In this document: piece after piece, positions 156-46,010 of the stretch
Position numbering within the stretch: position 1 is the first letter of the stretch
Layout of the letters: each line of letters opens with the position of its first letter
Origin: a virus
Length of the DNA: 46,010 nucleotides
Virus record (IMG/VR): IMGVR_UViG_3300005265_000744
Location: 1-46,010 of that record
Direction: 5' to 3' (one strand)
The notes under the pieces: model-generated
The model's input: only the letters and a program-made list of their open reading frames with translations
Told to the model about the DNA's origin: nothing
Databases searched by the model: none
Position numbers and translations under genes: made by a program

Positions 156-1844
156 CTATCCCTTGAATATTCTAACTGTGTTTGTTGTTGGTAATGAACC
201 AACTATTAGTTCTTTCAGCTTATCGCCATCAACATCAGCAACATATATTGCTTCAGGAGTTACTGTTGCTTCATAAGCTTCGATTGCCTGCTTTGTCCAC
301 AAGATCTTGTCTGGGTATTTTACAAGACTTACAAATGGTCTAAGGCGGGATGATTCTACTCTTTGGTAAAACGCTACTATTTCTTTTAGTCCATCCCTAT
401 CTGCATCTATTGCAATTGTTCTAAACAGTGGTGAAAGTGTTACAACTGTGCCTGAGTCAACAACGATATTTGTTAGTAACGTAATTGGATTTGTCTTTAA
501 TACAAGGCTTACACTATCTATAAAAGCTAGTACTAGGTCTTCTGGATTGACTACAGCTACATAGTATGGTGTAGCCTTCGACATTAAGACTGCAAAAGCA
601 TAGAATGGACTTAGTGTACAATAGCCTGAAAGTGGTGTATTCGATTTCACAATCTGTAACGTAGTTGGATCAATAAACATAAATAAACCATCTAATGAAA
701 CAGCAAAGATCTCATCAATGTTATCATCATCAATATCCTTACAAACAGTAAATACACAGTTTGTAGTTGGTAACGATGTTTCATTAATAATTGTACCATC
801 AAGTTTAACTACCATTAGTTTGCTCTCTGATGACATTAAATAATTGACAACAATTTCCCTAATACCATCACCATCAACATCGCAGAAACAAGGTCTTGTT
901 GCATATATTGCAGATGGCAGAGTAATTGTTTTTATTATACCAATTCCTTCCTTAGCGATAACAAGTAGTATGTAATACTCAGTTGCTGATGTATAAACTC
1001 GAACAATAGTCACTATTTCAAACTTGTAATCATTATCGAGATCTCTTGCAAATAAATGTAGAATCTCCATTGATTGTCCTTGCTGAGGTATTGATATCTT
1101 AAATAATTGTTTACCAGCAAGATTAACAATGTCTATATATTGAATTTTATCAGATGCAATCAACTTTATTATGCCGTCCTTAATAATTAGCATTGGATAA
1201 ACTAATCTATTTAATATCTTAAGTTTCTTTTCAAACTGTTTTGAGTAGGCATCTATTACATATAAAGTACCTGTCTCTGCATCAAGTGCGAATATTTCGT
1301 CTCTTCTGTCAGCATCATAATCAACTGCTGTTACATGTGTTACTAGGGTGCCTCCAAGCGTAATATCTGTATAGACTGTTCCTGTGGCGAAATCTCCATC
1401 TGTTCCGAAGTCGTTTGTCATGCCTGGATCTCCATATGGATCAAATGATCCTGATGGTAGTACTATGACTGGAGCAGGTGTTGGTGGCACTAGTAAAACG
1501 CTCAAGATTTCCTGTGCTATTGTTGGGTCAATTCCATAGCTCTTTATAAAGTACTCTAGAATACCCTTTGCAGAGATTTCATATGCCTTTGCCTTAAGTC
1601 TACCAAGTTCTTTCAATAGCTTATTCGCAAATGCTATGTACTTTGCTCGTTCAGGACCAGTAACAGCATACTTGTCTAGTATAGGTCTTATAAGGTCTTG
1701 AACATCAGAGAAAATGTATAAACCAGCTAGACCACGGTCAAGCGCGATATTTCTTACCTGACTAAGCCTACTACTAATTGTATCAGGTACGTATTTTGCT
1801 TTCCACTTCTGATATCTATCAGTACCACTTCTATACAAGGTCAT
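156..1844 (-). CDS. Capsid-domain / beta-propeller fusion protein (minor virion protein)
   Basis: This 562-residue protein has two parts. Residues 1 to about 118 are closely similar to the major capsid protein encoded at 26734-27108; both contain LYR, KW.AK, VPDT, DLIRPILDKY, TGP.RAKYI and FANKLLK. After a Pro/Gly linker (about 120-150), residues 155-562 hold six Asp-rich calcium-type repeats of the form DxDxDxxxE, for example DVDGDGIREI and DVDGDKLKEL. These are typical of FG-GAP/VCBS (integrin-alpha-like) beta-propellers. I infer a minor capsid subunit that co-assembles with the coat, perhaps at the virion ends, and displays a propeller for host or glycan binding. It is the leftmost gene and reads toward the terminal repeat. 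A TATA-like AT-rich stretch lies near 1873-1889. Confidence 0.85.
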   Translation of the reverse strand: MTLYRSGTDRYQKWKAKYVPDTISSRLSQVRNIALDRGLAGLYIFSDVQDLIRPILDKYAVTGPERAKYIAFANKLLKELGRLKAKAYEISAKGILEYFIKSYGIDPTIAQEILSVLLVPPTPAPVIVLPSGSFDPYGDPGMTNDFGTDGDFATGTVYTDITLGGTLVTHVTAVDYDADRRDEIFALDAETGTLYVIDAYSKQFEKKLKILNRLVYPMLIIKDGIIKLIASDKIQYIDIVNLAGKQLFKISIPQQGQSMEILHLFARDLDNDYKFEIVTIVRVYTSATEYYILLVIAKEGIGIIKTITLPSAIYATRPCFCDVDGDGIREIVVNYLMSSESKLMVVKLDGTIINETSLPTTNCVFTVCKDIDDDNIDEIFAVSLDGLFMFIDPTTLQIVKSNTPLSGYCTLSPFYAFAVLMSKATPYYVAVVNPEDLVLAFIDSVSLVLKTNPITLLTNIVVDSGTVVTLSPLFRTIAIDADRDGLKEIVAFYQRVESSRLRPFVSLVKYPDKILWTKQAIEAYEATVTPEAIYVADVDGDKLKELIVGSLPTTNTVRIFKG

Positions 1845-6897: not shown

Positions 6898-7419
6898 TTA
6901 CTTTCTGATTAGTGCTTGGTATGATCCTGAGCCCTTTGCTGTTTTTATGATCTGACCCATCTTCTTTGCATCTACCACGAACTCAGTATATGTCATCCTG
7001 TAGTTTCCTGTCTTAACCTCGTAGTAGGCAAAGAAGATAAGTGCACTATTCTTTGCAACTCTCTTGATCTCGCTATATGTTCTGTCTTTGTTTGTCACAA
7101 ACATGACAACATTCCAGTATAGGATTACATCTGCCACGTCATCTCTAATTGGCAAGTACTCGGCGACTGCTCTAATCACATCAATTCCTGCTTTATGGAT
7201 CAGCTTTGCGAACTTCTCGTATGGCTCAACCGCTATCTTTCTTCTTGCATCTAGTGTCTTGATCTTGTCGCCATAGCCTGCACCTACATCTATCAATGTG
7301 TCGACATGCTTTGGATAGTTCTTCTTGATGAACTCTGGTACACCTGTTGCTTGCTTGCAGATACCTAGCTTGTAGGACTTTGACTTGTTTGGTGTGTTTT
7401 GTGTTACCACTGTCTTCAT
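6898..7419 (-). CDS. Class I SAM-dependent methyltransferase
   Basis: This 173-residue protein has a clear Rossmann-type methyltransferase core. DVGAGYGDK is the SAM-binding motif I, KIAVEPYEK is motif II with its acidic residue, and AEYLPIRDDVADVILYWNVVMFV is the motif III-IV region. That pattern is typical of type-11-like methyltransferases. The substrate is unknown. The start at ATG 7419 is fixed by a class B promoter with a palindrome exactly 12 bases upstream. The 6449-6880 gene follows it. Rudiviruses also encode small SAM methyltransferases, though I cannot show direct orthology. Confidence 0.8.
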   Translation of the reverse strand: MKTVVTQNTPNKSKSYKLGICKQATGVPEFIKKNYPKHVDTLIDVGAGYGDKIKTLDARRKIAVEPYEKFAKLIHKAGIDVIRAVAEYLPIRDDVADVILYWNVVMFVTNKDRTYSEIKRVAKNSALIFFAYYEVKTGNYRMTYTEFVVDAKKMGQIIKTAKGSGSYQALIRK

Positions 7420-7431
7420 GGCCGAGCTATA

Positions 7432-7467
7432 GTTAGCATGCTAACTTTTAAGCATTACCAAATTTGG
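7432..7467 (-). promoter_or_regulatory. Class B promoter module of the methyltransferase gene
   Basis: On the minus strand this reads CCAAATTTGG (7458-7467), a CTTAAAAG TATA box, then the perfect palindrome GTTAGCATGCTAAC (7432-7445), then 12 bases to the ATG. The same arrangement with the same 12-base spacing occurs before the genes at 20270 and 21431. The palindrome spans the likely transcription start, as expected for an operator. Confidence 0.8.
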
Positions 7468-7549
7468 GATTCAACTCCACATGACCATCCTGACTCCCAA
7501 AAATCCAAATTTAACTTAAATACTAGACTAGCTATAGGAGGATCTAGTC

Positions 7550-10545: not shown

Positions 10546-11193
10546 TTAGGTTTCATCGATTGAAATAAGATAACCTTCAGGATCATACATGAATGTTATT
10601 GTTCTTGTCTCACCTGTTAACTTGTCTGTTATGGTCATTTTCTTGATGTTCTTGTTTTCATCATATTCAATATCAATCTTAAGTGGGTTTGTCTTGACAT
10701 CAGGATCTTCTAGCAGAGGCATTAATGTCTCCTCAATTGCCTTTCTAGTACCTTCATAGACTTGCTCAGACACTAATATACCTAGTTGCTTAGCTAATAT
10801 TCTTTCTGTTGGGTCAATAGTTACGCCAAGTTGTTGAGCAATTTCACGCAATGGCTCTTCTCTTAAACCAAGTGCAAGCCAATAAATAAACAGAGCATTT
10901 GCCTCTCTCTGAAGTGCCTCATCCCTATAACGCATTTTACAATACCAAATACCTTGTGCAAACCAAACATATGCATGTTCACGAATTAACTCGTCTGGAT
11001 ACTTTGAAATAACAGACTTAACAATTTTGATAAGTTCCTCATGAATAGCCTGATATTGAATAATCTTATCAAGTGCTATTGGCTTAGTCCTCCCTAGATA
11101 AACAGCATAGACCTCAGCATTCATCTTACGATCCCAAAGCTTTGCTCTCTGCTCAGGAGTCCTATACAATACATGCTTACGCCTACGAGCCAT
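10546..11193 (-). CDS. Hypothetical protein, 215 residues
   Basis: The N-terminus is very basic (MARRRKH). The body is helical to about residue 170, followed by a beta-hairpin-rich tail (about 172-215) of the form IEYDENKNIKKMTITDKLTG, ending in acidic residues. It is encoded in the minus-strand structural-type block. The basic start could contact DNA, but no family is recognised. Confidence 0.6.
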   Translation of the reverse strand: MARRRKHVLYRTPEQRAKLWDRKMNAEVYAVYLGRTKPIALDKIIQYQAIHEELIKIVKSVISKYPDELIREHAYVWFAQGIWYCKMRYRDEALQREANALFIYWLALGLREEPLREIAQQLGVTIDPTERILAKQLGILVSEQVYEGTRKAIEETLMPLLEDPDVKTNPLKIDIEYDENKNIKKMTITDKLTGETRTITFMYDPEGYLISIDET

Positions 11194-17875: not shown

Positions 17876-17930
17876 AGTAAAACTAAATCTAATCCCAAAT
17901 TTGAGAGATGTACATTTTTAGCCACCATTT

Positions 17931-17955
17931 TACTACACCTAGCTGAGGTGTAGTA
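17931..17955. promoter_or_regulatory. Class C palindrome upstream of the DpdA-like gene
   Basis: Arms TACTACACCT and AGGTGTAGTA flank a 5-base centre, and the element ends 2 bases before ATG 17958. An almost identical copy lies at 36925-36949 before the primase gene, and a looser copy at 45778-45805. A CCCAAATTTG element at about 17893 is also shared with class B promoters. Confidence 0.75.
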
Positions 17956-17957
17956 GA

Positions 17958-19103
17958 ATGCCAAGCGTCTGGTATGATCCCAAGAGGCGAAGATGGGTTA
18001 TTCGCCTATCCAGAAACAAAACACGAACACTTGGACTATGGTCAGGTTTCAAAGAAGCACACTCATTTATTGCAAGCCGGATTACAGGCAAATTTAAATT
18101 CTTCTTCGTTATATCATCTGCCGATGTCCTAAACATAGCCAAGGCATTCATACATCTAAAACAAGTAGTACCAGATCTCACAAGGAAGATAGGTCTCCTG
18201 TTCTCGTTTGCAAACTTTGCAAAGATTAATGATCGAGGTAGGGTAATTGGCTATGACAGAGAGACTCTAGAGGCAATGAAGATGCTTAAGGAACATGGAT
18301 TTGAGATCATGGTAGATTCAGGTGCTTTCCACGTTTTAGCACGTAAGATTCCTGTTGAGAAGTTCCTGAGCTACATAGACGACTACATCAGATTTGTCAA
18401 TGAGCACCTTGACCTAATTGATTGGTTTGTAACAGCGGATATACCATGTGATGCACGTCCTGCAAAAGAAATCCAAGAAATGCCAAACAGATGGAAAATC
18501 GAGCAAACCGTCAAGAATACAATCTACATCATTGACAGGTGTCAGGATCCCAGGAAGTTAATCGCTGTGGTACAGGGCTATAATGTACACGAGTATGTCT
18601 ACTGCTGTGATCTACTTAGACAACACGGGATTATTACTGCTAGGACAGGCGTTGGTAGTCTCTGTATCAGGAAGTATGACGGCTCTGAGGTATTAATTGT
18701 TGCTGACATACTCGATAACGTTAAGAAAAACTTGCCACAATGGGTCAAACTCCACGCATTTGGACTCAACGTCAAATTCCTACAACACAAGGAAATAGCA
18801 GAGAAGCTCTATTCAAGCGACTCCGCAGCATGGTCTTTCTCATATACAAGATTTGGCAGAGTAACCCTCGTTAGTCAGGACGGAGACTTTGTCGAACTCG
18901 ACTTAAACCTACACAAGTACCTGTACCGCGCAGTCAAGTTACTTGAGATGGTTGGCTACGACAGGAAAGAGGTTGAGACACTTAAGCAGCTTGCATACCA
19001 TGCTGGACTTAGATCTGAGCGGGTTCTCCGTGACCGCATCCTGATCTACAAGCTGCTAATACTAACTTATCTAAGTAAGTTAAGTCAACTTGGTCTACTC
19101 TAG
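17958..19103 (+). CDS. DpdA-like tRNA-guanine-transglycosylase-fold enzyme (putative DNA 7-deazaguanine transglycosylase)
   Basis: This 381-residue protein has a TGT-type barrel. VDSGAF (119-124) matches the TGT S-DSGGF motif with its catalytic Asp, VVQG (204-207) the substrate-binding IVQG, and GVGSLC (231-236) the GLAVGE loop. LHAFGLN (265-271) and SSDSAAW (286-292, D288) fit the nucleophile region of phage DpdA proteins. DpdA enzymes swap guanine in DNA for preQ0 or a related base. Residues 1-45 (WYDPKRRRWVIRLSRN and then LGLWSGFKEA) resemble an AP2 or integrase-arm DNA-binding domain, which would favour DNA over tRNA as substrate. The YhhQ-like transporter at 5139 could supply the base. 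The gene is controlled by a class C palindrome. Confidence 0.82.
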   Translation: MPSVWYDPKRRRWVIRLSRNKTRTLGLWSGFKEAHSFIASRITGKFKFFFVISSADVLNIAKAFIHLKQVVPDLTRKIGLLFSFANFAKINDRGRVIGYDRETLEAMKMLKEHGFEIMVDSGAFHVLARKIPVEKFLSYIDDYIRFVNEHLDLIDWFVTADIPCDARPAKEIQEMPNRWKIEQTVKNTIYIIDRCQDPRKLIAVVQGYNVHEYVYCCDLLRQHGIITARTGVGSLCIRKYDGSEVLIVADILDNVKKNLPQWVKLHAFGLNVKFLQHKEIAEKLYSSDSAAWSFSYTRFGRVTLVSQDGDFVELDLNLHKYLYRAVKLLEMVGYDRKEVETLKQLAYHAGLRSERVLRDRILIYKLLILTYLSKLSQLGLL

Positions 19104-20054: not shown

Positions 20055-20219
20055 ATGACATTGAGAAAGCCTGAGAGAACCTATATAGCAGAGGTCAAGG
20101 GACGACTAAAGAATGGTAAATACCTTGAGGGATATGTAACACTTCATATCAGCTTGCCTGCTGACCTAGTTGGTAAACGAGTTAAAATTCATGTTAAAAT
20201 TGAGCCACTTGAACAGTAA
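20055..20219 (+). CDS. Small strand-rich protein, 54 residues, paralogue of the 7550 product
   Basis: An open frame runs from ATG 20055 to TAA 20217-20219. The product contains HISLPADLVGKRVKIHVKIE, which aligns with TITVPRDWVGKNVKIIVKLI of the 62-residue protein at 7550. Conservation between two distant copies supports both as real genes. The fold may be AbrB-like or another small beta dimer, but this is not established. Confidence 0.65.
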   Translation: MTLRKPERTYIAEVKGRLKNGKYLEGYVTLHISLPADLVGKRVKIHVKIEPLEQ

Positions 20220-20221
20220 TC

Positions 20222-20257
20222 CCAAATTTGGTAATACTTAAAAGCTAGCATGCTAAC
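20222..20257 (+). promoter_or_regulatory. Class B promoter module of the 20270 gene
   Basis: CCAAATTTGG (20222-20231), TAATACTTAAAAG as BRE/TATA, then GCTAGCATGCTAAC (20244-20257), then 12 bases to ATG 20270. It differs from the 7432 palindrome at one base. Confidence 0.8.
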
Positions 20258-20269
20258 ATTATCACAGCC

Positions 20270-20947
20270 ATGAGAATGGAGAGACCACTAGTGCCAAAGA
20301 CGGCTATTGCAAAGATCAGGAGAACACTTACAAAGCGTCTACCACAGGAAGTTGCAGAAAAGACAGTTGTACTAATCCAGAAAGCATTAGAGCAGTTTAT
20401 TACGCTACATAACGACTACTACGCTCCTGATTATCAGTACTATAAGATTAGACTATTTGATGTTGTAAGGTTAACTCCATCTCAAACATTGGCAATGTTA
20501 GCTATCCTGAGACATGAAGCAGAGTATCCTGCAGAGAGAGCAATACCTCCATCTGAAAAAGTCTTTGAGAACTTCTGGATACCAATTGCATACATATTTG
20601 TTGGACTAGCAGAAGATCTAGAGACAAAGGAAAAGACAGTCGTTACAAGGTATAAGCTTTGGAATTTTGCAAAGAGACTAGAGTGTAAAGGAACAGAGAA
20701 TATGCCTGATGTATTTGAAGAGCAGGAAAATGCTGACTTCATGAAGAGGCAATGGGCTGTTTTTAATACAGCCGTGAAGATCGAGCTGTACTTTTGGTGG
20801 AGCGACTATGCAAAACTACCAAAGAGTCTATACACATTTGGAAAGCTAGTTGATGATTATGGAGTACTGCTAATCATAACTGAAGATGAAATTATTGCCT
20901 TCATGTTACTATTCAAAGCTTTTGAATTAGGAGATCAACAACAATAA
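20270..20947 (+). CDS. Hypothetical protein, 225 residues
   Basis: I do not recognise this protein. It is helical and rich in aromatic residues, with no Cys pairs, membrane segments or enzyme motifs. The class B promoter groups it with the methyltransferase at 6898 and the zinc-ribbon protein at 21431. It converges with 20956-21333. Confidence 0.65.
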   Translation: MRMERPLVPKTAIAKIRRTLTKRLPQEVAEKTVVLIQKALEQFITLHNDYYAPDYQYYKIRLFDVVRLTPSQTLAMLAILRHEAEYPAERAIPPSEKVFENFWIPIAYIFVGLAEDLETKEKTVVTRYKLWNFAKRLECKGTENMPDVFEEQENADFMKRQWAVFNTAVKIELYFWWSDYAKLPKSLYTFGKLVDDYGVLLIITEDEIIAFMLLFKAFELGDQQQ

Positions 20948-21380: not shown

Positions 21381-21418
21381 CCCAAATATGGGTAAAGCTT
21401 AAAAGTTAGCACGCTAAC
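21381..21418 (+). promoter_or_regulatory. Class B promoter module of the 21431 gene
   Basis: CCCAAATATGGG (21381-21392), TAAAGCTTAAAAG as BRE/TATA, then GTTAGCACGCTAAC (21405-21418), then 12 bases to ATG 21431. The upstream box here is itself a near-perfect inverted repeat. Confidence 0.8.
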
Positions 21419-21430
21419 CTACTCCTGGAC

Positions 21431-22336
21431 ATGAACGCGAGAAAGGTCTACACCTACGAGATCACAGATCTAATCCCAAGACTAACCGAGAAAACAGTCA
21501 GGAAAGGAAGGAACAAGTACAGATACAAATCACTAGTAGTCGAAGTCTATGGCAGTAAACTGCCTGATGACCTAAAGGTGCTACTATCTGGAGTAGGCAA
21601 GAAGAACGGTACAAAGGTTAGAGTCAAGGCAAAGCTAGTGATCGAGGTTGAGGTTGATGTAGAGAAGTTTGCTACAGAGAAAGAGTTTGAGAGAAAGGTT
21701 TGGGTTGTGGAGTCAGGAATCTATCGCGGTTACATAAACTACCTGAAGGCTGACATGGACCACTATGAAGTGATTGAGATTGTTGTAAGACCTGATAACA
21801 CAATCAAATTCAGGAAGATCTACAGTGATTATGGTCCAGGAGCTCTTGACAGGATTAGAGAGAAGTTTGGTGATATACCACACCTATTTGCACTACCGCT
21901 ATTTAGAGCATTAGGAGAGATTAGCGAGTACCTACACAGGATAATTGAGGATGAGAAGAGGTGTCCTGTATGCGGCTCTAAGCTGTTAGCTCTAGCAAAG
22001 AAGGGTCGATACAGCGATGACTACACAAAGATTAACATGTGGCATACAGGCTACTCGAGAGATATACATGAGATAAACAAGTACAAGTGTGTCGTCTGTG
22101 ACACAGAATATCTAGTTGAGTATGAGACATGGGATGCGAGATCTGTCCTGAACTGGAGAATTGCTGTTGTAAAAGATGGAAAGACCTACGAGGCCGCGAA
22201 ATATGGCATTACTGATGATGATAGTCTATACAGCTACTACCGTGGTATAGCAAAGCTTGCACAAGCACTTGGCATCCTAAAGATTGTGACATCTGACCCA
22301 TTTGAAGCACTAAACAATCTAATGCCACTTTCATAA
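21431..22336 (+). CDS. Zinc-ribbon-containing hypothetical protein, 301 residues
   Basis: Two knuckles, CPVCGS (about residues 178-183) and CVVCDTEY (about 219-226), form a likely zinc ribbon. The N-terminal 120 residues are strand-rich and basic, and the C-terminus is helical. No nuclease or polymerase motif is visible. Class B promoter control suggests a regulatory or early role. Confidence 0.65.
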   Translation: MNARKVYTYEITDLIPRLTEKTVRKGRNKYRYKSLVVEVYGSKLPDDLKVLLSGVGKKNGTKVRVKAKLVIEVEVDVEKFATEKEFERKVWVVESGIYRGYINYLKADMDHYEVIEIVVRPDNTIKFRKIYSDYGPGALDRIREKFGDIPHLFALPLFRALGEISEYLHRIIEDEKRCPVCGSKLLALAKKGRYSDDYTKINMWHTGYSRDIHEINKYKCVVCDTEYLVEYETWDARSVLNWRIAVVKDGKTYEAAKYGITDDDSLYSYYRGIAKLAQALGILKIVTSDPFEALNNLMPLS

Positions 22337-22554: not shown

Positions 22555-23703
22555 ATGGCATACACATTTAATCCATTTGAGGACAATGAGCTTGTTTGGT
22601 GGAAAAAGAAGCTCTATCAAAAGCAGGATTGGCTAGTTCTCTGGGATAGATTCTTTCAAATTGACGAACTTCTGTTCAAAGACATCTCACTGACAACAGC
22701 AATCTCACATATTCTAGCTATTAAGGTTAAGTGGGATTTTGGAATTGAAGTTGAGATTCCATTTAGTGTTGCACCACCTCCTGAAATGCCTGAGTGGCTT
22801 AAGCAGACGAGGTACCCAACCTACCAGAAGGCAGTATATGGAAAGTCGACCTATGGGACAAGTTATTATGATCCTGAACAATGGCGTGAGGCTGTTAAAA
22901 AGCTGTTCTTCTATGCTATTACACAGGGCTATAGGTACACGACAGGCACGAACGAGTACAAAGGCTTTGGCAAAGGTGAAATTATTCGTGAAGGAATTAG
23001 CTTTGATAAGCTAAGCAGAGTTTCCATGCTTGTCTATGTGATTACTGAGGCTCCGTTCTGTGGCTTTGTAATACCTGGATTAACAAAAATTGCACCTTGT
23101 TATAAAAAGGAAGGTACATGGGTCACAAAAATCGGGGTCACAACTCCTGAAGGATATGCCTTCGAGACCGAGGTCTCATACATTTGGGAAATTAGCCATG
23201 GTCATATTTGTGGGATTTCTGCCTGTGGCATATCAAGAGCAGTTGGTTATAGAGGTATTAAGCCAAAGCCAATAGTGCCTATCGAGGCTGCAGATTGGAT
23301 CTTCAAAGACGTGAGATTCCAGCATGCTAGGTTCATTGCAAACTTGACAGCAATGAAACTGCCTAGAGCACCAACACTCCAGAAGACAACATGGACTGAG
23401 GAATATGCAAGATGGACTACACTAGTCAAGCTATGTGAACGTAGGCTCAGAGCATACCTAGAGAAGAGAGGTATTGACCCAATGCAGATAAATGCATATC
23501 TTGACTTTCTCAGAGAGCTGCTATTTGGCAGAGTCAAGAAGCATAGACCTGGAAAGAGAGGTTTCGTCTACCTGTATGAGGAGAAGTTCCTGAACTATCT
23601 AATTGGGAAGTACGTGCGAATGGGCTTGAATGAGAAGATCCTCAGAGAGATAATCGACTTGTTCATTGATGTTGCTAGGCACGTGTGGCAACAAAGGCTT
23701 TAA
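22555..23703 (+). CDS. Hypothetical protein, 382 residues, probable virion-associated
   Basis: I do not recognise this protein. It is rich in Trp, Tyr and Phe in the first half, with a mixed beta middle (about residues 150-240) and a helical C-terminus. It starts 2 bases after the coiled-coil gene and leads the plus-strand region that later contains the coat and appendage-like genes. No catalytic motif was found. Confidence 0.65.
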   Translation: MAYTFNPFEDNELVWWKKKLYQKQDWLVLWDRFFQIDELLFKDISLTTAISHILAIKVKWDFGIEVEIPFSVAPPPEMPEWLKQTRYPTYQKAVYGKSTYGTSYYDPEQWREAVKKLFFYAITQGYRYTTGTNEYKGFGKGEIIREGISFDKLSRVSMLVYVITEAPFCGFVIPGLTKIAPCYKKEGTWVTKIGVTTPEGYAFETEVSYIWEISHGHICGISACGISRAVGYRGIKPKPIVPIEAADWIFKDVRFQHARFIANLTAMKLPRAPTLQKTTWTEEYARWTTLVKLCERRLRAYLEKRGIDPMQINAYLDFLRELLFGRVKKHRPGKRGFVYLYEEKFLNYLIGKYVRMGLNEKILREIIDLFIDVARHVWQQRL

Positions 23704-26733: not shown

Positions 26734-27108
26734 ATGCCACTGTATAGAACAGGTGTAGATAGATTCAAGAAGTGGAGTGCAAAGTTCGTACCTGACACAG
26801 TAGCTGCGAGATTCACACAGGTAAAGGATGTTGCAATGGACAGAGGTCAGGCTGGACTACTGAAGTTTGCTGATGCACAGGACCTAATTAGACCAATACT
26901 AGACAAGTATGGCATCACAGGTCCAGACAGAGCAAAGTACATCGGTTTCGCAAACAAGCTACTGAAGCACGTAGCAAGACATGGAGGTGCTGCAATGAGC
27001 GTAATTGCTGCAGGCCTAAAGGCATACTACGTCCAGGCATATAAGGCAGACCCAGCAATACTAGACGAGATTATCAACGTTATCGCAGGTATCGTCCTAG
27101 CATACTAA
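26734..27108 (+). CDS. Major capsid protein, rudivirus (SIRV)-type
   Basis: This 124-residue, nearly all-helical protein aligns by eye with SIRV-type rod-virus coat proteins as I recall them. Both have KW-x-AKF near the N-terminus, YGITGP-x-RA-x-Y in the middle and AGLKAYYV-x-AY-x-A-x-P-x2-LD at the C-terminus. In that family the protein forms a helical bundle that wraps A-form DNA in a rod-shaped virion. A second copy of the domain forms the N-terminus of the 156-1844 protein. The leader has CGAGGGTCT before ATG and a TTTAAG TATA-like box at about 26695. A long T-rich terminator follows, which fits a highly expressed single gene. Confidence 0.9.
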   Translation: MPLYRTGVDRFKKWSAKFVPDTVAARFTQVKDVAMDRGQAGLLKFADAQDLIRPILDKYGITGPDRAKYIGFANKLLKHVARHGGAAMSVIAAGLKAYYVQAYKADPAILDEIINVIAGIVLAY

Positions 27109-29097: not shown

Positions 29098-32000
29098 TTG
29101 ACTGTCGAGCAGATACAATTAACAAGAGAGGAACTTGAGAACTTAGCACGTCTTATTTGTCTAGCTTTTAGGCTCAACGATACTACCGGATTTATTACAT
29201 ATGTTGAAACACCCGAACAGAAAACACTTCGTATAATCTACATTGAGAAGCTAGAAGACCTTCCACAATACATTGATTTGGAGAGGCTTGCACACGAGTT
29301 GCCTGAGCCTGTTCATGGCATTGCAGATCCATTTGGTCAGCTCATACAGACAATTTCTAACTTGTTTAAGTCCTGGTTTGATTGGCTGTGGAACCAGATA
29401 AATGAGCATGTAGTAAAGCCGTTCACAACATTCTTTGAAAACATACTGTCAGGACTAAGTACAATAATTAATGTTTCAGGAACATTCCTACAAAACTTAG
29501 TAGCTGTAATCAACGAGTATATTGTAAGGCCAATTGGCAGCATCATACAGAATGTTATAGATGGGATTAGGCAGTTATGGAATCAGCTCGATAAGCTAGG
29601 TACAACAATAGTAGACTACTTTACAAAGACATTACCTTACTTACTTAGTTCACTTGGTGCTCAGATACTCAATGCGCTAAATGCTATTTGGGTTAACATT
29701 AGAGATGCTTTAAGCTGGTTAGCAAATCAGTTAAGTAGCCTCATATTAAGTGTTGCGACGAGTGTTAGAACCCTATTCAACTATGTTGTTGATTTCTTTA
29801 CGAAAACACTGCCAAACTTCTTTGCCAACATAGTTAATCAGATTTGGAGAGGAATTCAGTGGCTACACAGGCAGATAACAGTAGCATTTAACAATTTATT
29901 GAAATACTTATCAGATACATTTGGGAGTCTAGCAGAGTTTATTACAAAGACATTGCCAAACATGGTTGCACAGATTGGTCAACAGTTAATAAAGACTCTA
30001 CAAGGTATGTGGAATAGTATAGTAAATACGGTAACACAGCTTGGTCAGAGGCTTTGGAGTGGTATTCAACTTGTATGGAATACTTTAGTTCAGATTGGTC
30101 AGCAAGTTGCTCAGACTATTACAAATGCGTTTTCAACTGTTGCTAATGCGATAAAGGTGTTTGCAAACTATCTGAGTGGATTTGTTAATGCGATTCTAAA
30201 GTTCCCTGAATGGTTCCCAAAGTGGTTCTATGAAAATATTGCGAAGCCAATTTCAGATGCGCTAAGTGGTCTTGCAAAGTGGCTATGGGATCACATGCCT
30301 GCCGCTATAAGAGAGGCATTCATAAAGATTAGAGAGTTCTTTGAGAGGGCTTGGGACTTCTTAACTAAGACCTTACCAGAGTTCTTCAGTAAACTATATG
30401 AGGGTCTTGTCGACTTTGCTAAGAATCCAGCAAAGTGGTTTGCTGAGTATGTTATGAAGCCAATGTGGAATGCAATTGTTAGCCTTGGTCCAGAGATTGT
30501 GAAAACTATAGGAGACTTTGGCAAGGTTGTGCTTGAGGGTCTAAAGCAGTATGCTGAAATGTTGAAAAATGTTGCAAAGAGTGTTGTTGAGTTTCTTGCT
30601 AACTTAGTTTTGTCTATCGGCAATGTATTTAAGGCCTTGTTTGATCCATTCTTAACACCACTAAGACAAGCATTCACTACGCTAACATCAACACTCAGTA
30701 GGAAGGTACGCGAAATTGCTGAGAAGAGGTTTACTATGGGTGGTGAGCTATCGGTATTCATTCCAGTTGCAGTAACATTGCTTGAGAACATTTTCATCCC
30801 ATTTGCAATTGGCTTTGCACTTCAAATGGCTGCAAACATGATGCCAAAGGTTAGGTTAAGGATTCAGCCATTTGGAGTTGGAGCAGGTGTTGAGATCAAC
30901 CTGAGCAAAGCAATTGAAAAACTTGGTAAGTTCTTCAGTGACATAAGCAGAGAGATTGCACAAGGCTATGTAATTGGTTTTGGCATGGCGTTTGGAGAGG
31001 CATTGCTAGAAGGTGTAAGACACTATGTCAACATGCAGCTAAGAAATGTTGTTCCAATTGAAATACCAACATTAACAGAGGGTAAGCACCTGCTAGAGAG
31101 GGCATATGCAATAGATGCTAAGTTCAATGAAGTACTTAAGAAGTATCGTGAATGGCTTGCAATGAGAGGATTTGCAGACTATATAATTGATCTTATTGCA
31201 AGAAAGCCTGAAGAATATGCAATTTATGTAACAGATAGGTTTGGTCAACAGAGGTTAGTACCACTTGCATACATCTACGAGATTCCAACAGTAAGCGAGC
31301 TATGTAGGATGATGGTTCACGACATCTTTGGTAGTCTAGAGGACTTTGAGAAGTTAATGCGTGCACGCGGTATATGTCCTGACATTGCCAAGCTGTTCTA
31401 TTTCCTACACTTCAAGTATCCAAGTCCTGAGAAGCTGTGGGAATTTGTATGTAGGTGTATTGCAGGCGAGACATGGTTTATACCAACAGACGAAATGATG
31501 GCCGAAGCCAAGTCTGAGGCCGAGAAGGTTGGTGCGTTCGTTCCTATTGCTCCTGCTAAGCTAGGAGAGGCAATATCCAAGCCTGAAGTTGCAAAGCTGG
31601 TATTCAGAGCATTTAGCACTTACATGAAGTGGCATGACTATGCAAAGTTTGCATGGGTTAGAGACTTCACAAGCGATAACTGGTTGATAATTGACGTACT
31701 AGCGGACATTCCAGGAAAGATTGACTTAAGGTGGATGTCGAGGTGGGGTATCTTTGAGGCATGGGCTGCATGGGGTATCACGACAACTGATAGAATTGAG
31801 GACATTATCAAGAAGGCATTGAATAAGCCTGCTGAGCCGGTTTACGAGAGACTTGCAAAGATGCTTGAGCAGCCTGCTATTGAGATGGACGTGAGGCAGT
31901 ACTGTAGACTACTACAAGCAGACAGGCTGCACCCACTTTGGGTACCATTTGTGGCGGTAGCCGAGACAATCAATGCACTGACTGAGGAGAGAACACTGCT

Positions 32001-33375
32001 AAGGACCGGATTCTGGAACTTGTTCAAGGAAGGACTATTCGACATTAGTGCAATGAACAAGTTGTTTGCTGGATTCTTCACTGTCAAGTTCAAGGTTGCA
32101 TACTTCGATCCAGTGAACTACAAGTGGGTTGACGCAGACTTCAACATACCTGTCATGTTCTTGCCTGCTGAGGCAAAGCTAATCGAGATCAGAGCTACGA
32201 TGGACAGGGCTGTCGACCTATGGAGAGACCTGATGAGAGAAGTCTTTAGCGGTATCAGACATGCAGTATGGACACCTGATGAGGCAATGAACATCCTAAA
32301 GTACTTCGTTAAGAAGGAGGGTAAACTGCCATTTACATATAAGCTTGAGAAGTCTCTAAGTGAATGGTTCAAAGAAGCCATCAGGAAGATTTCAGGTAAG
32401 GAAGTTGAGCTACCAGTTGACACAGACTGGGTTAACCTCTACATGTTCATCTTCAGGACAGCATATGAAGTTGAGAAGGTCTTAAGACTAAGATACTGGT
32501 TGGTCAGAATCGTAGCATGGGCTATCTACAGGCTTGCTTACGGCTACGTAACAAAAGAGGATATTGAAAAGCTTGTTAAGATAGTTCAGGAGAAGGCTAA
32601 GCTGACACAGTACGAGGCAGATGCAATTAGAGAGATCGCAGACTTACTAGTTGGCATTGCGAGACGTGAGTATATTCCAACTCCAATGATGATGGCAAGC
32701 ATTGTTGAGGTAGTGCCTGAGGCAAAGAAGCTTGTTGATGAGGTCCTAAGGAAGAGAGGTGTACCACCTGAGTGGATCCCAATTTGGAAAAAGTACATTG
32801 AGATTCGTCCATTAGTGAACGAGCTGACTAGGTGGAGGACAAGACTTGAAACAGTATTCAGCTATGGTGCACTCAGCTACAAGAAGTTTGAGAACTTGAT
32901 CTCGATACTGAGAAACTACGGTTGGACTAACGAAGAGCTAAATGTTGAAACGAATATTGCACTGCTGTATAGGTGGCAGAGGATCTTCGCTCAGATTATA
33001 CCAAGTCCAATTGGCTTGACAGGATACTATAGATATGTGCAGGATGCGATGCAGTTCCTGACTAAGAAGCTAGATGCAATACTAGAGCTTGATGTTCTTA
33101 AGCACTTCATGAGACCTGAAGAAGCAAGAAGACTAATTGATACAATCAAGAACTTCTACATCAAGCTTGCAATTAACAGGAGTGTCTACCCAGATGTGAG
33201 AGGCTACATCAATGACCTGATTAGAGCATACGAGTATGGTATAATTGATGATGCAACGTTGATGAGAGAGCTTGAAACACTTAAGCAGTATGGCATAAAT
33301 GATGAGAACATCAAGTTGATTATAAAGAGAGCAAAGTTGAGAAGAGCAATTCGTCAGGCAAGATATGCACGCTAG
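29098..33375 (+). CDS. Very large amphipathic-helical virion protein, 1425 residues
   Basis: This is the largest gene. Residues 1-85 form a small domain. About 85-540 is a long run of amphipathic, Trp-rich helices with a recurring F-x-TKTLP motif near residues 172, 232, 281 and 420. About 553-590 is a hydrophobic stretch (FIPVAVTLLENIFIPFAIGFAL). The rest is helical with a conserved-looking, charged C-terminal domain. The start TTG 29098 is about 30 bases after a TTTTTTATT box. Rod-shaped archaeal viruses carry one very large structural protein at the virion ends, and this is the positional candidate. The helical repeats also recall tape-measure or membrane-penetrating proteins. Confidence 0.75.
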   Translation: MTVEQIQLTREELENLARLICLAFRLNDTTGFITYVETPEQKTLRIIYIEKLEDLPQYIDLERLAHELPEPVHGIADPFGQLIQTISNLFKSWFDWLWNQINEHVVKPFTTFFENILSGLSTIINVSGTFLQNLVAVINEYIVRPIGSIIQNVIDGIRQLWNQLDKLGTTIVDYFTKTLPYLLSSLGAQILNALNAIWVNIRDALSWLANQLSSLILSVATSVRTLFNYVVDFFTKTLPNFFANIVNQIWRGIQWLHRQITVAFNNLLKYLSDTFGSLAEFITKTLPNMVAQIGQQLIKTLQGMWNSIVNTVTQLGQRLWSGIQLVWNTLVQIGQQVAQTITNAFSTVANAIKVFANYLSGFVNAILKFPEWFPKWFYENIAKPISDALSGLAKWLWDHMPAAIREAFIKIREFFERAWDFLTKTLPEFFSKLYEGLVDFAKNPAKWFAEYVMKPMWNAIVSLGPEIVKTIGDFGKVVLEGLKQYAEMLKNVAKSVVEFLANLVLSIGNVFKALFDPFLTPLRQAFTTLTSTLSRKVREIAEKRFTMGGELSVFIPVAVTLLENIFIPFAIGFALQMAANMMPKVRLRIQPFGVGAGVEINLSKAIEKLGKFFSDISREIAQGYVIGFGMAFGEALLEGVRHYVNMQLRNVVPIEIPTLTEGKHLLERAYAIDAKFNEVLKKYREWLAMRGFADYIIDLIARKPEEYAIYVTDRFGQQRLVPLAYIYEIPTVSELCRMMVHDIFGSLEDFEKLMRARGICPDIAKLFYFLHFKYPSPEKLWEFVCRCIAGETWFIPTDEMMAEAKSEAEKVGAFVPIAPAKLGEAISKPEVAKLVFRAFSTYMKWHDYAKFAWVRDFTSDNWLIIDVLADIPGKIDLRWMSRWGIFEAWAAWGITTTDRIEDIIKKALNKPAEPVYERLAKMLEQPAIEMDVRQYCRLLQADRLHPLWVPFVAVAETINALTEERTLLRTGFWNLFKEGLFDISAMNKLFAGFFTVKFKVAYFDPVNYKWVDADFNIPVMFLPAEAKLIEIRATMDRAVDLWRDLMREVFSGIRHAVWTPDEAMNILKYFVKKEGKLPFTYKLEKSLSEWFKEAIRKISGKEVELPVDTDWVNLYMFIFRTAYEVEKVLRLRYWLVRIVAWAIYRLAYGYVTKEDIEKLVKIVQEKAKLTQYEADAIREIADLLVGIARREYIPTPMMMASIVEVVPEAKKLVDEVLRKRGVPPEWIPIWKKYIEIRPLVNELTRWRTRLETVFSYGALSYKKFENLISILRNYGWTNEELNVETNIALLYRWQRIFAQIIPSPIGLTGYYRYVQDAMQFLTKKLDAILELDVLKHFMRPEEARRLIDTIKNFYIKLAINRSVYPDVRGYINDLIRAYEYGIIDDATLMRELETLKQYGINDENIKLIIKRAKLRRAIRQARYAR

Positions 33376-36903: not shown

Positions 36904-36924
36904 GTGACTCAAACCATTCCATCT

Positions 36925-36949
36925 TACTACACCTAGCTCAAGTGTAGTA
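36925..36949. promoter_or_regulatory. Class C palindrome upstream of the primase gene
   Basis: Arms TACTACACCT and AAGTGTAGTA flank a short centre. The element shares 23 of 25 bases with the one at 17931-17955 and lies 23 bases before ATG 36973. It links primase and the DpdA-like enzyme in one regulatory group. Confidence 0.75.
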
Positions 36950-36972
36950 GATTCCTCTTTGGGATTCCAAAT

Positions 36973-38392: not shown

Positions 38393-40243
38393 TCATAAGA
38401 GTGAAATCATGTCGGTCCTCGACGCAAACTCTGCTCGTCTACCTGCGTTCCAGTTCCTAACAGGTCTATAGTATCCTACGATCCTTGACCACTGCTCAAC
38501 CTTGTTGCTTCCACACTTTGGACATGTCCAAAATAGCTCCGTGGCTCTATAGCCACAGTTGAGGCAGATTGTCTGTGTTGGTGTGTAGCTAATGTAGACT
38601 ACATCTACACTTTCCAGTATATCTAGCATTAGCTTCTTGACGTTCTCTGGTTCTACAGGCCTGTGGACAAATATGTGCTTCATGACACCTCCAGTGAACA
38701 GCTTCTGGATCTTGCCTTCGATCGTAATCTGTGTAGATAGCCTATACGTTGTGTATGGTGGTGTGATCTGTGACGTGTAGAAGACCTCTTCAGTTCCTGT
38801 AAATGGATCCTTTGCTCTTGGTATGAAGTCTCGAAACTCAGGATAGCGCTCATAGTCAAGTAGTGCAAGCCTGTAGCTAGATGACTCTGATGGTGCCTGC
38901 TCTAGGTTATATAGGACTCCATCCTCAAACTCAAGTTCGTCAAGCAGCTTATTGATGAACTCGAAAGTCTTTCTATACACGATGATGATCTCTCTTGCTC
39001 TTTCAATTCCACTTGGTGTAATCTCTCGGTACCAGAGCTTTGGATCGTTTAGGATTATGGCAACGTACTCTGCTAGTCCTGTAACAGCAATTGTGTTGTA
39101 GTAGTACTTGAATGGATTATATGGGTCAATGTACTCGCGCGTCAGTGGGTAGAATCCTCTCAGATGTAGGAACCTGTACCTTGACCTCAGTATGTTCAGG
39201 ACTCTTGCAGCCTCTAGAATTAGGTCTGGTAAATAATCAAAGACGAACTTCTCAGCATCACCACGCTTCAATCCCTCAAGAGCAAGCCGAGGCAGATTGA
39301 TCGTAACATAGTTAATACTGCCTGCGCTTGGTGGGAGAGCCCATATGCCACGGCTCATGTGTAGGTACTCCATGACTTTTCTAGTATTAGCAGTCAATCT
39401 GCAGCAAAAACTGAAGATTCCTGTTCTGTCCGTAATCAGCGAGTTTAGGAAGTAGAATGAGCCTCTCTCAGCCACAACTTTCCAGAATAGTTGGTCTAGC
39501 TCTGGATCCTCCTCTAAAATCTTCAGGAACCTTCGTGTGACAATTACTGTTGGTATTGGAAATGTGAATGGTCTGCCATATGCATCACCTTCTAGTAGGA
39601 CCTCACATAGTGCCTTTAGGATTAGCTTTGCTTCATCAATGTAGTCTCCTAGCTTGCCAACGACTCGGCCTTCTACATAGGCTGGAGCCTCATACATAGA
39701 TTCGACACCAATTGCAATAATGATGTTGCTAAATGGCGACTGGTAGCCTAGCTTAACTGTGTAGTTCAGGTTGTAGATGAATCTCTGGATGTTCTGCTTG
39801 ATTGTCTTGTAGTCTAGCTTGTCCTTAGCCACGAATGGTGCTAGGTACAGATCAATTGCATGTAGGCCTACAGCTCCTGTTCTCTCCTGTGACATCATCA
39901 TAATGAAGTTAGCTAGCTGATCAACTGCGCTGTCTAGATGCTTTGGTGGCTTGGATATTACAGCAGGTGTGATCAACCCTTTCTGCAGCACTCTAGCTGT
40001 ATCGACACCACAGCAGTATGGCTTCCACCATGCACCATCATTCAACTTGTTTATGTGAAACCAGCCCTCGACATGTAACCTGCGTGCTGTCTCTGGTAAC
40101 TGCTCAAGTACTTCCTCGACAGTTAGCTTAGCAAATGCATAGCCGACGAAGTGGCTGACGCTGTAGTTGGTGTTTGCGTTTTCTTGTATGTCCCATGACC
40201 TTTTTAGAAGATATTCTCGCTCAATCTCGCTTATTTTTGGCAT
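38393..40243 (-). CDS. nrdD: Anaerobic (class III) ribonucleoside-triphosphate reductase
   Basis: This 616-residue protein shows NENANTNYSVS-like sequence near the N-terminus (ENANTNYSVS), YCCGVD and FCCRLTANTRKV with the candidate active-site Cys, and GSINYVTINLPR. The zinc site is CLNC...CPKC (C560, C563, C574, C577). The glycyl-radical segment is RIVGYYRPVRNWNAGRR (G590). It makes dNTPs from NTPs without oxygen. The N-terminal ATP-cone of most cellular NrdD is missing, so dATP feedback should be lost. No NrdG activase gene is seen, so the host enzyme is probably used. The TATA-like CTTATATAC (40255-40263) lies in the gap shared with the divergent PolB gene. Confidence 0.93.
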   Translation of the reverse strand: MPKISEIEREYLLKRSWDIQENANTNYSVSHFVGYAFAKLTVEEVLEQLPETARRLHVEGWFHINKLNDGAWWKPYCCGVDTARVLQKGLITPAVISKPPKHLDSAVDQLANFIMMMSQERTGAVGLHAIDLYLAPFVAKDKLDYKTIKQNIQRFIYNLNYTVKLGYQSPFSNIIIAIGVESMYEAPAYVEGRVVGKLGDYIDEAKLILKALCEVLLEGDAYGRPFTFPIPTVIVTRRFLKILEEDPELDQLFWKVVAERGSFYFLNSLITDRTGIFSFCCRLTANTRKVMEYLHMSRGIWALPPSAGSINYVTINLPRLALEGLKRGDAEKFVFDYLPDLILEAARVLNILRSRYRFLHLRGFYPLTREYIDPYNPFKYYYNTIAVTGLAEYVAIILNDPKLWYREITPSGIERAREIIIVYRKTFEFINKLLDELEFEDGVLYNLEQAPSESSSYRLALLDYERYPEFRDFIPRAKDPFTGTEEVFYTSQITPPYTTYRLSTQITIEGKIQKLFTGGVMKHIFVHRPVEPENVKKLMLDILESVDVVYISYTPTQTICLNCGYRATELFWTCPKCGSNKVEQWSRIVGYYRPVRNWNAGRRAEFASRTDMISLL

Positions 40244-40314: not shown

Positions 40315-42735
40315 ATGATTGTAGATGCAAAAATTGACTACAGAGCAAAGAGACTAATACTGATCCAGGACCAAGGACTACCAGACACACTTCCTGCTAA
40401 GCGACCATACTTCTACGCAATAGTGCCAAACTGCTACAAGGGACTGTTTCTAAAACTAGTTGAGACACTACAGGACAAATACGCAGTTGAAGTTGAAGAG
40501 GACAATAAGACACCAATTGTTTACACAGGGACGAAATATGAGCCAAGCAACAACTTCACAGTATTCAGGATAATTGCAGTTAGTCCAACTCAGATTCCGA
40601 AGATATCTCAAGCAATAATGAAGCTGTACAAGAAGCTGAACATTAGGAAGGCAGCAGACAATGTACGATATATCGTCAGAAACGTAGTCGACTACAATAT
40701 CAGATTCTTTGACTCGATCCCAGCTCACTATGGCTTTGATACTCGTGTTATTCATAAGATCAGGCAGCTCAAGATGCTGCTGCTAGACGTAGAGGTAATT
40801 GAGAGTGAGCCCAAGCTAGTATCATGCTATATCTACACACCATTCGAAGAATTCAGGAAGGATGACGTGATCTCACTCAAGTTACCAGAGCAACTAGACG
40901 AGCTGCAGAAACTAATTAATAGATATAGTATTATCACAGGATTTAACCTACTAGGTTTCGACATTCCATGGCTCAAGAGAGCAGGAATCAGAATCGACCT
41001 CACGACAAAATGTGTATTTGATATTGCATTAATCTTAAACACGTATGGTGCTGGATTTCAAGTAGGTTCTGCACGTAGTCTACTAGATGTTGCACTAGTC
41101 ATGAAAAATGAGGTAGGAATATCCGACGAAGAAATCGAGCTAAAGCGAAAGGGTAGGAAAATACTAAAGTCACAGAATTGGGATGAGATCGTAAAATACA
41201 ATATTAATGACATTGGTTTAACTGTTAAGATTGAGGATCCATTCTTTGCTTTTGCTGCTTGTACATCTGCTATCACGCAGATTCCACTGTCTGAAATACA
41301 GGTGCTTAGCAGTGGCATGGTTGCTGAATATTTCTTACTAACATTCTGTGAGAGGAATGGATTTGTACCTGAGTATAGACCTACTGAAGTTGAATTGAAA
41401 GGTGAAAGAGTTTGGATAATTGGAGAAAAGAGAACATTCAAGAATGTTCTACAGGTCGACGTCAAGACAATGTATCCAGCATTCGTAAGTTATTTCAAGA
41501 TTGACCCAACACTTGTTACAGAGATTGGTCAGAAAATATCAAAGTTTGACAGAAAGAATGGACTTGGAATTGTATATTCTGCAGTTCAGCTATTTATACA
41601 ATATAGAAAGTATACTAAGCAACTTGCGAAGCAAGATAAGAAGTTCAAGTTTATGGATCATGCAGTAAAAACCATTCTAAATGCTCTTGCCTATGGAGTA
41701 CAAGGTAAGAAATCCGGTTCAGCAATAATGGGTAATCCATACTGTCCTGCTACAATCTTCTATGGAACTAGGGAGGCTCAGTTCAAAACTATTGATTATC
41801 TTTCAACAATTGGCATGTCATACAAAGAAGATCTTTTATTCAAAGTTATATATAGTGACACAGACAGTTTCTTTATAGCTTTTAATAGAAAACCTACTGA
41901 AGATGAAATCAAGGATGTTGTAAATAAGATCAATGAATTCTTGAAACAGTATGGACTTGAGGTCGATATTGAGGATGTTTGGGATGAGATGTATATCTAT
42001 AGCAAGAAGAATTATATATTGAAGAAGGGTGAAAAGATTGTTATAAAGGGTTCAGCATTAAAGATGCTTGCAAAGTCAAGGTTGCCGTCATGTATTGATA
42101 TTATTGAATTACTCAGATTACCAAGTCGTGAGGACAAGATCAAGTATATTCAAGAGCAGATTATGAACTGTGAAATTCACGAGTTATTCATAAGGACACA
42201 CATGCAGATTTGGAGAACTATTGCAAAGGATATCCAGTCTGTTAAACGTGATAAGAAGGGTCAGTCAAAGTATATCAAAGTTCTAACGCCATGGTCTGAA
42301 AAACCAACAGTTTATCTAAAGAAGTTGACTGCATCTCAGAAGCATAGTGTGAATAATGCTTGTTTGATTAAGCTTCTTATTGATGGTAACGGTATATTTG
42401 AGCTTGAGAATTATACTGCTTTTGATATTGTTGAGACCTTTGTACTAAAGACTGATGATATTGGCTTGAAAGCACTGCCATACGAGCTTCTAATATTTGA
42501 TGAAAAACTGTATGGAGTTACACTACATGATGCTAAATATGTGATTGTTGATGGAAGCGAAATTAAGGAAATTCCGGCTGCTTACTCTCCAGACATGGTC
42601 AAGTCTAGACGTCCTGAGATTGTACAAGTCAAGGCTAAGATACAGCTCAAGAAGTTGGATATTGATGAGGATACGCTTAGGCAGGCAGTCTTGAGGTACA
42701 CAATTAAGAAGCTTGAAGAATATGAGCTAATCTAG
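40315..42735 (+). CDS. polB: Family B DNA polymerase with 3'-5' exonuclease
   Basis: This 806-residue protein is complete. Exo I is LLDVEV (D158, E160), Exo II GFNLLGFD (209-216) and Exo III YNIND (295-299). Pol A is DVKTMYP (382-388), Pol B K452-x3-N456-x3-YG461 and Pol C YSDTDS (513-518), with a downstream KKNYILKKGEK (about 560-570). The first 150 residues match the N-terminal domain of cellular archaeal PolB. Only about 70 residues separate motifs A and B, leaving no room for the TPR1 insertion of protein-primed polymerases. It is therefore likely RNA/DNA-primed, consistent with the primase at 36973, despite the inverted terminal repeats. Confidence 0.95.
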   Translation: MIVDAKIDYRAKRLILIQDQGLPDTLPAKRPYFYAIVPNCYKGLFLKLVETLQDKYAVEVEEDNKTPIVYTGTKYEPSNNFTVFRIIAVSPTQIPKISQAIMKLYKKLNIRKAADNVRYIVRNVVDYNIRFFDSIPAHYGFDTRVIHKIRQLKMLLLDVEVIESEPKLVSCYIYTPFEEFRKDDVISLKLPEQLDELQKLINRYSIITGFNLLGFDIPWLKRAGIRIDLTTKCVFDIALILNTYGAGFQVGSARSLLDVALVMKNEVGISDEEIELKRKGRKILKSQNWDEIVKYNINDIGLTVKIEDPFFAFAACTSAITQIPLSEIQVLSSGMVAEYFLLTFCERNGFVPEYRPTEVELKGERVWIIGEKRTFKNVLQVDVKTMYPAFVSYFKIDPTLVTEIGQKISKFDRKNGLGIVYSAVQLFIQYRKYTKQLAKQDKKFKFMDHAVKTILNALAYGVQGKKSGSAIMGNPYCPATIFYGTREAQFKTIDYLSTIGMSYKEDLLFKVIYSDTDSFFIAFNRKPTEDEIKDVVNKINEFLKQYGLEVDIEDVWDEMYIYSKKNYILKKGEKIVIKGSALKMLAKSRLPSCIDIIELLRLPSREDKIKYIQEQIMNCEIHELFIRTHMQIWRTIAKDIQSVKRDKKGQSKYIKVLTPWSEKPTVYLKKLTASQKHSVNNACLIKLLIDGNGIFELENYTAFDIVETFVLKTDDIGLKALPYELLIFDEKLYGVTLHDAKYVIVDGSEIKEIPAAYSPDMVKSRRPEIVQVKAKIQLKKLDIDEDTLRQAVLRYTIKKLEEYELI

Positions 42736-45899: not shown

Positions 45900-45906
45900 T
45901 TGGGGT

Positions 45907-46010
45907 TTGCCTGTTCTCTTGGTTTTGTTGTCTGTCCTGTTTGTTTCCTGTTCTTTTGCAACCTTTCAATTTTTCTTGTGTCTGAAAGTTTGTCTTTTGC
46001 TATCTTTTGT
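45907..46010. repeat. Right inverted terminal repeat
   Basis: This is the exact reverse complement of bases 1-104. On this strand it is T-rich and A-poor. No gene lies inside it. Confidence 0.97.

Follow-up and report, generated by a model that had tools for sequence, protein, structure and literature searches.

A capsid protein paralogue joined to a predicted calcium-loop beta-propeller in an archaeal virus related to the Rudiviridae

In the genome analysed here (the window, that is, the whole virus record of 46,010 bases), which belongs to a rod-shaped virus whose hosts are heat-loving archaea, the last gene towards the left inverted terminal repeat encodes a protein of 562 amino acids in which a second, diverged copy of the major capsid protein (MCP) is followed by a beta-propeller. 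The gene occupies positions 156-1844 on the minus strand as an open reading frame without internal stop, and was delimited by this frame, by identity to the MCP, by Pfam matches and by predicted fold. Its product can be divided into a coat-protein domain of the SIRV2 MCP type (residues 1-117; 1494-1844, minus strand), a linker with a proline-rich start, PPTPAP (residues 118-157; 1374-1493, minus strand), which was delimited from the sequence and from a pLDDT of ~30-38 at residues 121-157, and the propeller (residues 158-562; 159-1373, minus strand). On balance, we read this protein as a probable minor coat subunit, which would assemble together with the MCP and present its propeller to the host surface.

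The two halves of the fusion protein

A preliminary description of this DNA had taken the first ~118 residues of the protein for a diverged second capsid copy, and this has been borne out. Residues 2-116 are 56% identical over 115 aa (E 2e-47) to the MCP of the same virus, a protein of 124 aa (26734-27108, plus strand) recognised by Sulf_coat_C (89.6 bits) and by identity to rudivirus MCPs, and the N-terminal part of the fusion itself matches Pfam Sulf_coat_C (PF12193) with 55.3 bits, where 25.2 is the cut-off. Structure prediction, which had been proposed as the check on a capsid-like fold, also returned the coat fold. The AlphaFold2 model of this domain, built with an alignment of coat relatives in which true MCPs were included, is all-helical, with pLDDT mostly of 80-97 over residues 41-120. 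Among known structures it fits the SIRV2 coat protein 3j9x best (VIA Z of 13.5, with an rmsd of 2.9 over 103 residues). The fusion keeps 37 of the 43 columns conserved among 18 MCPs, rudiviruses included, and of the six positions lost, all but one fall within the C-terminal helical segment or at its end, adjoining the junction. Its first 40 residues contain eight K/R, the same number as in the MCP, and the conserved K/R are kept; judged from the sequence, the presumed DNA-wrapping arm has lost none of its basic residues, the corresponding N-terminal region being the one that wraps DNA in SIRV2 (PMC5517147). These data support the N-terminal domain as a real coat paralogue with a coat fold.

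At the nucleotide level the coat part of the gene and the MCP gene share 62% identity, with dN of 0.37 and dS of 1.98, the latter near saturation, giving a dN/dS of ~0.18, and this supports purifying selection on the coat half. In the MCP tree the fusion pairs with the MCP of its own virus (support 85/82), on a branch of 0.69 vs 0.088 for that MCP. The simplest history would be a duplication within this lineage, after which the copy diverged quickly though under constraint.

The C-terminal part matches FG-GAP_3 (PF13517; 39.2 vs a cut-off of 26.9) and Beta-prop_CGLA (PF25292, the lambda-carrageenase propeller family; 39.9 vs a cut-off of 26.8). A motif search located six exact DxDxDxxxE motifs, at residues 175, 268, 322, 370, 480 and 537, a count that in 20,000 shuffles of the fusion protein had a mean of 0.012 and was never >2. 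These Ca-type loops are, in protein order and all on the minus strand, DYDADRRDE (1296-1322), DLDNDYKFE (1017-1043), DVDGDGIRE (855-881), DIDDDNIDE (711-737), DADRDGLKE (381-407) and DVDGDKLKE (210-236). The earlier view of this half as a six-repeat propeller holds for the loops, six of which are intact, but six is the number of loops and not that of blades; the spacings between motifs (93, 54, 48, 110 and 57), together with the ~29 strands predicted in the model of this half, suggest seven to eight blades. Viral relatives of the propeller half were found neither in phage records nor in viral-contig scans nor among the relatives examined, so it was modelled without an alignment and the model is poor: all-beta, of low confidence, with pLDDT mostly of 24-77, although it matches propellers at Z ~12 over ~130 residues. 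Profile matches and motifs support the assignment of this part as a Ca-loop beta-propeller, for which calcium binding is predicted.

The nearest relatives of the propeller are Thermoproteota proteins of ~510-540 residues, with ~20-34% identity and DxDxDG loops. Four of these matches (L047, L049, L050 and L054) were inspected as possible further coat fusions and rejected, since they are anchored host proteins consisting of an N-terminal hydrophobic segment, a propeller, an S/T-rich linker and a C-terminal hydrophobic anchor. The DxDxDG-loop propeller is thus common to these FG-GAP surface proteins and to the fusion, which has a coat domain where the host proteins have their hydrophobic N-segment, S/T-rich linker and C-terminal membrane anchor. 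This membrane-anchored architecture of the host relatives indicates that the propeller domain was probably derived from a host surface protein. The fusion contains no N-terminal hydrophobic stretch (the best 19-residue mean there is -0.12), and should therefore remain in the cytoplasm, where virions are assembled; nor does it contain any membrane-length segment.

The likeness to host membrane-anchored FG-GAP proteins could also be explained if the propeller interfered with host propeller proteins, in superinfection exclusion or cell-cell adhesion, with the coat domain serving only to multimerise it. This mimicry is a doubtful explanation, taking into account that hydrophobic and membrane-length segments are missing from the fusion and that the coat arm and fold have been kept. 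Still less credit can be given to a recent non-functional recombination product or an assembly artefact, to which the single metagenomic genome and the position beside the terminal repeat might point. The frame of 562 codons is intact, the coat part has diverged from the MCP gene under constraint, and all six Ca loops are preserved, and on these grounds an assembly artefact was rejected.

The virus and its relatives

The inverted terminal repeats of the genome are of 111 nt (1-111 and 45900-46010), with arms that are 97% complementary, so the linear genome looks complete. Features of the Rudiviridae are present in this linear dsDNA with terminal repeats, in the SIRV2-type MCP and in structural genes like ORF1070 and ORF488. 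The ORF1070-like gene (29098-33375, plus strand) encodes a giant protein of 1425 aa, a putative terminal-fibre protein (hhalign probability 99.4, E 2e-21 against the rudivirus ORF1070 family). However, the MCP falls outside those of rudiviruses, with which it has 34-41% identity and which form a separate clade on a branch of 1.44 in the MCP tree, and the virus has its own DNA polymerase. It is a member of a Tokiviricetes group related to, yet distinct from, the Rudiviridae.

The polymerase (40315-42735) belongs to family B, is Pol II-like by NCBIfam, and fits the general family-B model and not the protein-primed one. Known viruses with SIRV2-type MCPs have been reported to be without pPolB, whereas a family of adnavirus contigs, as yet unnamed, was described there as encoding a protein-primed polymerase of its own (PMC9246712); the virus described here may be akin to that polymerase-bearing family. 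The genome also encodes an anaerobic ribonucleotide reductase (38393-40243), two glycosyltransferases and a DpdA-like protein (17958-19103), the last of which hints that a rod-shaped archaeal virus may modify its DNA with 7-deazapurines.

Two sets of repeated elements were observed in the window. Direct repeats of 33 nt, 91% identical, lie at 17925-17957 and 36919-36951, just upstream of the genes at 17958 and 36973; they contain a near-palindrome (CTACTACACCT to AGGTGTAGTAG) and are possible regulatory sites. A conserved element of ~54-56 nt, at 7416-7471, 20218-20273 and 21382-21435, immediately precedes three genes that differ in orientation and is possibly a shared promoter or operator.

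A scan of genome contigs gave a sole match, a relative in a Fervidicoccus MAG (L006) with 61% MCP identity; further relatives come from other Thermoproteota genomes and from IMG/VR contigs, and weak MCP-like matches are present in G259, G493, G531 and G540. According to the preliminary description, no coat-propeller fusion was known in rod-shaped archaeal viruses, and none has come to light since. No report of a rudivirus capsid-propeller was found in the literature, a search that covers open-licence papers only; no propeller fusion was found in 50,697 phage records; and viral-contig scans with the fusion alone, the MCP alone, a three-row MCP alignment and a propeller alignment returned no relatives. 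Among the relatives examined the MCP-propeller version is found in this genome only, although most of the relative contigs are fragments, which makes its absence there weak evidence.

A proposed role at the virion surface

It is proposed that a duplicated MCP gene, in which the basic N-terminal arm and the fold of the coat protein were preserved, would have gained through a proline-rich linker a C-terminal Ca2+-loop propeller of the type carried by host Thermoproteota surface proteins. The fusion would be made in small amounts and would be built together with the MCP onto the linear dsDNA, being placed sparsely or, more likely, at both virion ends. Facing outward, the propeller would serve as an adhesin, stabilised by Ca2+, that attaches to the host surface and complements the ORF1070-like fibre protein. 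In this proposal, assembly with the MCP, a low copy number, display to the outside, placement at the ends and binding of a receptor are inferred.

Low expression is compatible with the codon usage of the gene, which is missing the bias of the MCP gene: the score of the fusion N-part is -0.15 vs +0.32 for the MCP, the MCP being scored partly on itself, and GC3 is 0.30 vs 0.42. As an estimate, two propellers of ~45-50 Angstrom per dimer could not fit along the whole rod. In SIRV2, 14.7 dimers are packed with tight contacts in each 42-Angstrom turn (PMC5517147), and the geometry of such packing, with propellers of that size, suggests that the fusion must be sparse. The SIRV2 virion is bipolar (PMC5517147) and touches host filaments with its ends, each of which has three fibres (PMC7911016). 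This contact through fibre-bearing ends makes an end position for the fusion an attractive possibility.

The closest analogue would be the coat readthrough protein of benyviruses. In this group, one or a few coat-readthrough proteins, a minor component at one end of the rod, mediate vector transmission (PMC7827187). Both this protein (BNYVV P75) and the luteovirus CP-RTD resemble the fusion in having a coat subunit with a large C-terminal domain. Nevertheless, the plant RNA viruses obtain theirs from the same coat gene by means of a leaky stop codon, whereas the fusion is encoded by a separate, duplicated gene of an archaeal dsDNA virus, its coat fold is unrelated, and its added domain is a beta-propeller. 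Among archaeal viruses, the MCPs of SIRV2 and SSRV1 (3j9x and 6wq0) share the PF12193 family, the fold and the basic arm with the N-terminal 117 residues of the fusion, but have no propeller. The role proposed for the fusion matches that of the SIRV2 fibre protein ORF1070, which takes part in host recognition at the rod ends (PMC7911016) and is unrelated in sequence.

Two features of the virus itself weigh against a minor coat subunit. The five conserved positions lost in the C-terminal segment could weaken lattice contacts, and the ORF1070-like protein that the virus encodes besides the fusion may already supply host recognition. Moreover, where rudiviruses have a second MCP paralogue, it is reported to stay out of the virions (PMC10848311). 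This precedent, the location of the gene in the terminal region and the same C-terminal losses would agree with a paralogue acting outside the virion, be it a soluble decoy, intracellular or released, an assembly regulator or a partner that titrates the MCP. A second coat-related gene per genome is indeed known from SSRV1, which encodes gp10, the second MCP of this rudivirus, and from the dual MCPs of Chiyouvirus and Ahmunviridae. However, gp10 is a small coat-only protein of 108 aa, shorter and without the N-terminal arm, whereas in the fusion the arm is complete and the coat fold preserved, and we regard a non-virion function as an unlikely alternative.

A further proposal places the protein in the virion with a different partner: as a genome-end cap or assembly initiator, its coat domain would sit on the terminal DNA and its propeller would contact the ORF1070-like or ORF488-like proteins and not the host. 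Other coat-like minor proteins in the same genome and the location of the benyvirus coat fusions at one virion end (PMC7827187) would fit such a function. Yet a core part of assembly should be conserved, and the propeller version is absent from the relatives examined; in addition, the closest relatives of the propeller are host surface proteins, which makes this proposal improbable.

Other coat-like proteins in the virus group

The reading of the fusion as a minor coat subunit, with the coat domain as an anchor, is favoured by further coat-like minor proteins in this virus group, found when a profile of 18 MCPs was searched against all the ORFs of the fetched loci. Inside a cluster of fibre- or adhesin-like genes of the window, a protein of 215 aa (10546-11193, minus strand) appears from profile and model to carry at its N-terminus another domain of MCP fold, highly diverged, which is followed by a beta domain predicted at the C-terminus. 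It matches the MCP profile with hmmsearch E 2.6e-8 and with a profile-profile hhalign probability of 96.7, and the top VIA match of its single-sequence model is the SSRV1 MCP 6wq0 (Z 9.5, rmsd 2.4 over 87), the next-best match being unrelated, at 7.1. Since a Z of 9.5 is below the conclusive level for helical bundles, it was combined with the sequence profile; the coat match came from VIA-align, Foldseek alone giving no significant match for this model. Homologues of the protein are present in L060/G167 and L095.

A second candidate in the window, of 382 aa (22555-23703, plus strand), is homologous to SIRV2 ORF488, and its C-terminal region is possibly MCP-like, as judged by profile comparisons. 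The profile of its family retrieves SIRV2 ORF488 at E 3.7e-6 and has a probability of 96.5 against the rudivirus homologues. The MCP-like region is the weakest case among these proteins, with a probability of 92 when L064 is in the alignment and of 66 without it. Compared directly, rudivirus ORF488 proteins and the MCP showed no link (probability 0.2), so any connection between them goes solely through the intermediate 382-aa family.

MCP paralogues with C-terminal tails are encoded in L100 (6612-7196, minus strand; 195 codons, E 9e-22) and L090 (5042-5551, minus strand; 170 codons, E 2e-15), stand-alone coat frames having ~119-148 codons in the loci examined. Each of them is divergently oriented, back to back, from an MCP gene on the opposite strand, and their tails are rich in acidic or small residues. 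In L095, a coat-like protein of 263 aa carries an add-on domain homologous to a stand-alone family of ~122 aa present in L037, L091, L092, L095, L096, L098 and L099 (E 1.6e-10 to 0.005; best members 1.6e-10 to 1e-5). Coat domains with exchangeable additions are therefore seen more than once in the group, and the propeller version once.

This pattern suggests that these viruses turn spare coat subunits into sockets that display host-contact domains. It is conceivable, and here put forward tentatively, that uncultivated relatives of rudiviruses use modular minor proteins of coat fold to build or decorate their virions, as lattice sockets of MCP fold with exchangeable domains (in the present virus a propeller, elsewhere other beta domains), and that ORF488-type proteins are possibly in part coat-derived. 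Little is known about the way in which rod-shaped archaeal viruses form their ends and switch host specificity, and a coat-fold socket with exchangeable binding domains would, if true, offer a simple and testable account of how new hosts are reached. It could also explain the extra MCP genes in some genomes, and would provide a natural thermostable rod displaying a large folded domain.

Tandem pairs of MCP genes were seen in L037 (4584-5341), L061 (15045-15789), L063, L068 and L092-L094; in the tree, the two copies in L037, L061, L063 and L068 fall into distinct clades, which makes this tandem duplication an old one. Several other large proteins were noted in the relatives. An ORF of 660 aa that adjoins the MCP gene in L006 (1888-3870) looks by eye like a fusion of a glycosyltransferase with a DNA adenine methylase-like domain. 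A protein of 1100 aa in L058 (9479-12781), which is likely to occupy a fibre position, is composed over its last third of short (H/F)SD repeats, present in dozens, and proteins of 737 and 582 aa in L036 (16256-18469) and L037 (19587-21335), respectively, are made of repeated DxxxxxDWISK-like units and are possibly fibres.
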